A DNA stretch of 37,458 nucleotides, taken from NCBI GenBank assembly GCA_022827945.1, contig JAJEIT010000073.1, positions 1-37,458 of the forward strand. The letters run 5' to 3'. Source of the DNA: Dehalococcoidia bacterium (lineage in GTDB: Bacteria > Chloroflexota > Dehalococcoidia > Tepidiformales > Tepidiformaceae). Shown here in pieces: positions 2,866-4,242 of the stretch. Each line of letters opens with the position of its first letter. Within the stretch, counting starts at the first letter, position 1. A program made the translations under genes and the position numbers. Under the pieces are notes generated by a model. The model searched no databases. It saw nothing but the letters and a program-made list of their open reading frames with translations, and had not been told where the DNA came from.

Positions 2866-4242
2866 ATGAAGAGCGAGCCGGGGGCGCGCGTGCGCCCCGG
2901 GGAGGGAGCGCGCACGCCCGTGTCAGGTGGGGACCGGGACTCGGCGAAGGCCTTGCGAGGCGCCTGGCAGGCCGTGCTGGGCCGGCTCGAACTCGAGGTG
3001 AGCCGCGCCAACTTCGAGACGTGGCTGGCGGGAACGACCGCGCGCTCGCTGAGCGACCGCGAGTTGGTCGTGGAGGCTCGCTCGGCGTTCCGGGCGGAGT
3101 GGTTGAACGAGAACCTGGCGCCGGTGGTCGAGCGCTGTCTGGACGCAGTCGAGGGCGAACGGCTGGCGGTCCGGTTCGTGGCGCCGGGGGAGGAGCCGCA
3201 CGCAGCGCCGGAGACGGCGGCGTCCTCCAACGAGACGGCCAGGGCGGGCCGCGAGCAGGTGGTGGGGCAGGTGAACGGGTCGTTCACCCTGTCCCGCTAT
3301 TTCCGGTCGGAGGGGAGCGCTCTGGCCCTCGCGAGCTGCCTGAGCCTGGTGGAGGAGGGGGAGCGGGCGATAAGCCCGGTGGTCGTCCACGGCCCGCCGG
3401 GGGTGGGGAAGACCCACCTGCTCCACGGTCTGGCGGCGAGGGCGAGCGACCGGGGACAGCGGGTGGCCTGCCTGAGCGGGGAGGGGTTTACCTCGGGCTA
3501 CCAGCGGGCGCTGCGGCAGGGGAACGTCGAGGCGTTCCAGGACGCCGTGCGGGGGGTGCAACTGCTCATCATCGACGACCTGCACGACCTCGCGGGGAAG
3601 ACGGGGACACTGCGGGAACTGGTACACACGCTGGACGCGGTCACGCACGGGGGAGGCGGAGTGGTGGTGGGGAGCGAGCTGCGCCCGCGAGAGCTGGGGC
3701 TCCCGGAACGCCTCTGCTCCCGGCTGGAGGCGGGGATCGTGGCGGCGGTCGAGCCCTTCGCGGCGGGCGAGCGCCGCGGATTCATCGAGCAGCGCCTGGC
3801 AGACCTCCGGATAGCGCTGCCGTCGTGGTGCCTGGAGGAGCTGGCGGCGGGGACGGGCTCGGTGCGGTCGATCCTGGCGGGGGTGCATGCGGCGGTGGGG
3901 CTGCAGCGACGGGGGCTGCTCAGCGAACTACGGCTGGCGGCCGAAGTGGGGGCGCTCGAATTGCATTCCCGCGGGAACGAGACGGCGAAGGCAGTGATCA
4001 AGCGTATCGCCGAGCACTTCGCGGTGGCCGTGGGGGAGGTGGAGGGGCGCAGCCGCTCCCAGAAGCTGGCGCGTACGCGGGCGGTGGCGGCGGCGGCGTT
4101 GCAGGAGCGGGGGTGCAGCTACAGCGAGATCGGGGCGCTGCTCGGTGGGCGGAGCCGGAGCACGATCAAGGGGCTGGCGGAGCGGGGGCGGGCGCTGGGC
4201 GCAGAGGATCCGGCGGTCGCGAACCTGCTCCGGGCCGGCTAG
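2866..4242 (+). CDS. Divergent DnaA-like replication initiator (AAA+ with altered domain IV)
   Basis: The 458-residue protein has the full DnaA layout. Domain I (about 30-100) contains SRANFETWLAGT. After a short linker, the AAA+ domain has Walker A GPPGVGKTH (176-184), Walker B LLIIDDLHDL (233-242), a sensor-1 region VVVGSELRPREL, an arginine-finger region RLCSRLEAGIVAAVEPF (Arg286), and a sensor-2 helix GSVRSILAGV. Domain IV (about 375-440) ends in LLGGRSRSTIKG. In DnaA this signature is normally GGRDHTTV, whose Asp-His-Thr contacts the DnaA box; here Asp and His are replaced. DnaA opens the replication origin. This copy may be the genuine initiator of a divergent lineage or a paralogue with another target. 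No dnaN, recF or rpmH lies nearby, and no DnaA-box array is seen. The stop shares CTAG with the converging gene. Confidence 0.85.
   Translation: MKSEPGARVRPGEGARTPVSGGDRDSAKALRGAWQAVLGRLELEVSRANFETWLAGTTARSLSDRELVVEARSAFRAEWLNENLAPVVERCLDAVEGERLAVRFVAPGEEPHAAPETAASSNETARAGREQVVGQVNGSFTLSRYFRSEGSALALASCLSLVEEGERAISPVVVHGPPGVGKTHLLHGLAARASDRGQRVACLSGEGFTSGYQRALRQGNVEAFQDAVRGVQLLIIDDLHDLAGKTGTLRELVHTLDAVTHGGGGVVVGSELRPRELGLPERLCSRLEAGIVAAVEPFAAGERRGFIEQRLADLRIALPSWCLEELAAGTGSVRSILAGVHAAVGLQRRGLLSELRLAAEVGALELHSRGNETAKAVIKRIAEHFAVAVGEVEGRSRSQKLARTRAVAAAALQERGCSYSEIGALLGGRSRSTIKGLAERGRALGAEDPAVANLLRAG

Follow-up and report, generated by a model that had tools for sequence, protein, structure and literature searches.

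A divergent DnaA in Tepidiformaceae with an altered recognition motif and candidate non-standard boxes upstream of obgE

Background

In domain IV of the initiator DnaA, base contacts with the DnaA box are made by residues 399, 423, 432–435 and 438–439, and the Asp-His pair of this domain has been termed highly conserved (PMC5043019). Variants of the box are known in Epsilonproteobacteria, where the specificity shift was ascribed to the beginning of helix 5 (PMC5043019), and a changed box, TTATCGAAA, has been proposed for Dehalococcoides by Ori-Finder (PMC2275245).

Here we describe a DnaA from a Dehalococcoidia bacterium of the family Tepidiformaceae in which this Asp-His pair is replaced. Its gene lies in a window of 37,458 nucleotides (the whole stretch of DNA analysed; contig JAJEIT010000073.1 of assembly GCA_022827945.1), and the host genome comprises 2.85 Mb in 99 contigs and is 95% complete. 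The initial annotation of the window had left two readings side by side, namely that the organism uses non-standard origin boxes or that the gene encodes a second DnaA with a new role.

Results

The motor residues of DnaA are retained

The dnaA gene (positions 2866–4242, + strand) is an ORF of 458 amino acids that matches DnaA_N, Bac_DnaA and Bac_DnaA_C in this order, each above the Pfam gathering score. On the same strand, domain I spans positions 2965–3141 (residues 34–92; PF11638, 42.1 bits), the AAA+ domain III positions 3277–3744 (residues 138–293; PF00308, 97.2 bits) and domain IV, with the DNA-binding helix-turn-helix, positions 3991–4167 (residues 376–434; PF08299, 44.7 bits in the genome search). 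Domain III contains the Walker A motif GPPGVGKT (3391–3414) and the Walker B motif LLIIDD (3562–3579), and the sensor-2 arginine (residue 334; 3865–3867) lies downstream of the Bac_DnaA match. Nearly the whole NCBIfam TIGR00362 equivalog model is covered, at a score of 214.6 bits against a cut-off of 343.9. The full set of AAA+ motifs first reported for this protein extends to its relatives: G181, K182, D237, D238, R286 and R334 are invariant in an alignment of 19 family members, where the motor set was defined as the Walker A lysine, the Walker B Asp-Asp, the sensor-2 arginine and the Arg-finger-type arginine of the SRF/SRL motif. The AlphaFold model (pLDDT 85.8) has a pTM of 0.61, so the relative placement of its domains is unsure; its best matches in the PDB are DnaA structures (B. 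subtilis and Aquifex, E 5.5e-21). Given the invariant motor residues and the DnaA-like model, the protein has the appearance of a functional initiator rather than of a degenerated copy.

The gene stands beside a merR-type gene and not beside dnaN, as first described. The MerR-type regulator gene (2178–2732, − strand; PF13411, 80.6 bits) is divergent from dnaA, a small ORF matching no Pfam family and then a CoA-transferase gene follow on the 3' side, and dnaN is found on a separate contig (C34:41187). An Rfam search of the window and the obgE regions returned no match.

Recognition residues are altered across the family

The recognition motif of domain IV (positions 4144–4164, + strand) reads G427-G-R-S-R-S-T433 in place of the canonical GGRDHTT, in agreement with the initial annotation. 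In E. coli numbering, assigned by alignment to E. coli domain IV, Asp433, His434 and Thr435 are replaced by Ser, Arg and Ser, and Leu438 and His439 by Lys and Gly. The equivalents of Arg399 and Arg407 are retained, the former as R397, which is invariant in a wider alignment.

This alteration is shared by the relatives. None of 31 family members has His434, versus 64 of 68 other DnaAs compared, a difference far beyond chance; the position is occupied by R in 16, K in 10, A in 3 and P in 2 of them. At position 433, D is found in 19 members, S in 8, A in 2 and N in 2, and positions 438 and 439 are altered as well. Arg399 (30/31), Arg407, Arg432 and Thr436 are each retained in 30–31 of the 31, and eight of the nine genomes of the window's genus share GGRSRST unchanged. 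In the tree, the family DnaAs group in a single clade whose long branch has full support. Judged from these comparisons, loss of His434 is a trait of the whole family, Tepidiformaceae. A PROSITE-style signature was dropped as a test, as it matched just 24 of 67 ordinary sequences.

Some other Dehalococcoidia DnaAs also lack His434, with motifs reading GDRTPTG (G040, L250), GYKDRTS (G043, L264), GGRSAST (G048, L256) and GGRSPAT (L099).

The divergent DnaA is the only one found

The profile search detected one Bac_DnaA_C domain in the host genome, that of the window's DnaA. A canonical dnaA elsewhere, which together with silence of the present gene had been named as a refuting condition, was not found in this 95% complete assembly. 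Across the family, Bac_DnaA_C was matched in 34 of 38 genomes, including all 22 good ones, and 33 of these 34 have exactly one. Four single-contig assemblies, G004 and the three genomes of genus g13 (G020, G034 and G060; 2.743–2.768 Mb), each hold only the divergent DnaA, which speaks strongly against a special-purpose paralogue whose canonical counterpart was missed in an incomplete assembly. What could favour such a paralogue is one genome of the 38, G016, in which a canonical and a divergent DnaA occur together. There, the divergent gene has a MerR-like gene and the upstream element of the family before it, which identifies it as the native copy. The canonical DnaA groups outside the family clade with marine Dehalococcoidia (L112, L098), and its contig also holds a second obgE; both features (L245, L246, L272, L276) make assembly contamination the probable source of this copy and of the second obgE. 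We therefore regard the paralogue as highly improbable, and the suggestion of a second DnaA with a new role fails. On the same grounds of grouping and second obgE, we rejected the idea that a paralogue had taken over from a canonical DnaA, for which G016 had seemed to be the case.

Classical boxes are at background and dnaA lies far from the parS region

Sites of the canonical box TTATCCACA number 15 over nine family genomes, versus 16 for the reversed control. Within 20 kb around parS, seven genomes contain 0–2 such boxes at up to one mismatch, and none has a cluster. The TTATCCACA clusters of a classical DnaA-box origin are absent from these genomes by this measure.

The parS clusters are flanked by yidD and by a lipoprotein-yidC-jag-parAB cluster; rpmH and rnpA come directly before, and dnaA is absent (gene names assigned by reading translations). 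Together with nearby dnaN and obgE, this parS cluster and rpmH-rnpA-yidC-jag-parAB group make up the gene set of an origin-proximal region. Where obgE and parS share a contig they are 16–40 kb apart; in the g13 genomes dnaN, obgE and parS all fall within ~90 kb, and in G004 dnaN is ~0.7 Mb off. The separation of dnaA from its usual locus, noted for the window, proved to be family-wide: the gene is ~0.37–0.46 Mb from the parS cluster in G020, G034 and G060 and ~0.8 Mb from it in G004. In sister families (G044, G045, G047, G050), dnaA is directly followed by canonical boxes, and where the next gene after dnaA or its boxes was read it is Obg-like (G044; also in G048, in G043 and at the canonical locus of G016).

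Orientation and composition gave mixed signals. The rRNA genes and L2 are co-oriented with an origin at the parS/obgE region in G020, G034 and G060, which belong to one genus and are not independent; the 16S gene of G004 is not. GC skew in G020 is strong (about 0.2) and changes sign from + to − over a broad zone at parS, obgE and dnaN (G020:C1, about 1.10–1.37 Mb; L188–L190, L203, L293, L294), opposite to the usual origin. This leaves two options, an inverted skew in G020 or an origin outside the region, and gene content favours the first. With its sign reversed and its transition broad, skew was set aside as a means of placing the origin, as was gene-strand bias, which is too weak to decide. 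An oriC with its own boxes in the parS intergenic region was also rejected: footprints of three genera share no repeat, and the region is very short in G004. These footprints keep parS. A GAACATATGTTC-type palindrome, resembling the Gram-positive LexA box, lies beside the last parS before the lipoprotein gene (L221–L224, L203–L205) and occurs in two of the three genera and in several more.

A candidate new box clusters upstream of obgE

Upstream of obgE, the g13 genomes carry 5–7 copies of a repeat with the consensus AA/TTCCCAACGG, partly conserved in place across the three genomes. CCAACG cores number 8, 7 and 7 in G020, G034 and G060 within ~250 bp, in both orientations, whereas the background, taken from sampled stretches, peaks at 2 per 300 bp across 400 kb of G020, and no second CCAACG cluster was found in about 85–97 kb around obgE. 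The CCCAACG counts of 7, 5 and 6 were never reached in 2000 shuffles of each genome's own region, and shuffles likewise do not reach the five copies of a similar TTCCCAAC cluster in G015; since the motifs were counted on the sequences that yielded them and relatives are not independent, such p-values are optimistic. Enriched 8-mers were CCCAACGG in the g13 genomes and CCGNACGG / GTNCGGAA in the window's genus, one base apart; simple-repeat clusters nearby also rank in the exact 8-mer listing.

In the window's genus the consensus repeat upstream of obgE is TTCCGNACGG, in 1–4 copies. By shuffle comparison the TTCCGNAC counts (1–4 per genome) are weak in G005 and G002, and G000 has three copies at up to one mismatch where background stretches reach 3–4. 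We consider the TTCCGNACGG cluster modest and only suggestive. Weaker CCCAAC groups occur in G029 and G009 and CCGGAC words in G014, G021 has no cluster upstream of obgE, and in G025 obgE itself was looked for and not found. A separate repeat in G004 (L171, 8778–8917) consists of five ACCGAACGG copies at exact 33-base spacing and is probably a coding tandem repeat.

With canonical boxes at background and another repeat upstream of obgE, the non-standard boxes first suggested receive indirect support from sequence comparison. The proposed check of skew and box clusters came out divided, the obgE cluster in favour and the sign of the skew against.

These data also bear on a relaxed or lost sequence specificity, in which DnaA would still be essential for opening or helicase loading, the origin would be recognised otherwise and the contact residues would drift. 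Differences between genera at residues 433 and 439 fit such drift, as does the weakness or lack of clusters in G021, G014 and G009. Drift is at odds with the near-complete retention of Arg399, Arg407, Arg432 and Thr436, with the constancy of GGRSRST in the window's genus and with the conservation of the repeats in three g13 genomes. We judge this explanation quite improbable.

Conserved elements precede dnaA

Footprint alignments mark two conserved elements upstream of dnaA in the window, GACCATAAGCC (2727–2737, + strand) and CCGTGAAAGGTCCGTTAATGAAG (2746–2768, + strand); at the first, most other genera have two copies of CACATAA[CG]. Family-wide, this upstream region (2727–2768 in the window; L002–L031) usually shows CACATAA[CG] twice, GTGAA lying between the copies and a promoter-like TTGAAC behind them. 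The elements do not match the box proposed upstream of obgE.

The TTAT half of the classical box is the half read by Arg399 in known complexes. The family DnaA might accordingly bind CACATAA[CG] (reverse complement [CG]TTATGTG; GACCATAAGC in the window's genus) upstream of its own gene, keeping the TTAT half of the box, with the obgE-upstream repeats serving another regulator and the origin using few or degenerate boxes. Retention of Arg399 is in keeping with this. So is the wide occurrence of the element, which precedes the dnaA promoter in almost every genus looked at, as a rule twice at a distance of ~50–60 bp. However, in four genomes CACATAA does not exceed its reversed control in frequency, and their sole exact pair within 100 bp lies upstream of the G025 dnaA; it is missing near parS and obgE in four of five genomes, and dnaA itself lies hundreds of kb from that region. 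As an origin box, CACATAA was rejected for want of clusters away from dnaA. We consider this alternative unlikely, if less so than relaxed specificity.

Discussion

The explanation that we think probable is a sole, functional replication initiator with re-tuned box specificity, whose gene moved from the ancestral dnaA-oriC-obgE locus. Non-standard boxes account for the data better than a second DnaA, so that of the two readings originally left side by side the first gains indirect, sequence-based support and the second falls. Under the proposed mechanism, dnaA would have moved away from the ancestral dnaA-oriC-obgE locus, after which domain IV would have lost His434 and, in the window's genus, Asp433. 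The altered DnaA would read a changed box, AA/TTCCCAACGG in the g13 genomes or TTCCGNACGG in the window's genus, and would bind these repeats upstream of obgE. The obgE-upstream region, at the ancestral obgE locus, would then be the candidate oriC, which ATP-DnaA would open in the usual way.

The boxes vary with residue 433. DnaAs with Asp433 are found with TTATC[C]ACA (canonical) and TTTCC[C]AAC (g13 genomes, G015), and those without it with TTATC[G]AAA (Dehalococcoides) and TTCC[G]NAC (the window's genus, with SRST; G004, with ARGT). Because the sample is small and we ourselves chose how to align the family box with the classical one, we offer a rule linking residue 433 to this base as a hypothesis. 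A broader and more doubtful possibility, to which we give some credence, is that the whole family rewrote its DnaA-box code: His434 was lost and the box became TTCC[C/G]NACGG; Asp433 was lost in two separate lineages, Tepidiformaceae and Dehalococcoides, with the sixth base of the box changing from C to G (TTATC[C]ACA to TTATC[G]AAA; TTTCC[C]AAC to TTCC[G]NAC), as a one-residue, one-base rule; and dnaA left the origin.

Tepidiformaceae, probably including the cultured Tepidiforma, with a single DnaA whose Asp-His pair is replaced, offer a natural experiment on the co-change of initiator and origin. Origin finders tuned to TTATCCACA would miss the candidate oriC of this family.

With canonical DnaA (TIGR00362; PF11638/PF00308/PF08299; 8btg, 1l8q, 2hcb), the window's DnaA shares the domain order I-III-IV, Walker A and B, the sensor-2 arginine, the basic-loop Arg399 and the helix-turn-helix fold. 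It differs in scoring below the TIGR00362 cut-off, in lacking His434, in its altered residues 433, 438 and 439 and in a gene unlinked from dnaN, obgE and rpmH. Epsilonproteobacterial DnaA retains a highly conserved Asp-His pair and varies at residues 435, 438 and 439 only (PMC5043019), whereas the window's family has replaced the pair. The Dehalococcoides type, from the same class, is likewise a sole DnaA in which Asp433 and His434 are changed (GGRSAST in G048), and its box set is changed too. The TTCGATAAC/TTCTATAAC repeats that follow dnaA in G048 are similar to the Dehalococcoides box and, with the TTATCGAAA box from Ori-Finder, provide a precedent for a changed box accompanying a changed Asp433/His434. 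Unlike the window's family, the Dehalococcoides type keeps the TTAT half of the box, and its dnaA still adjoins the box cluster and obgE.
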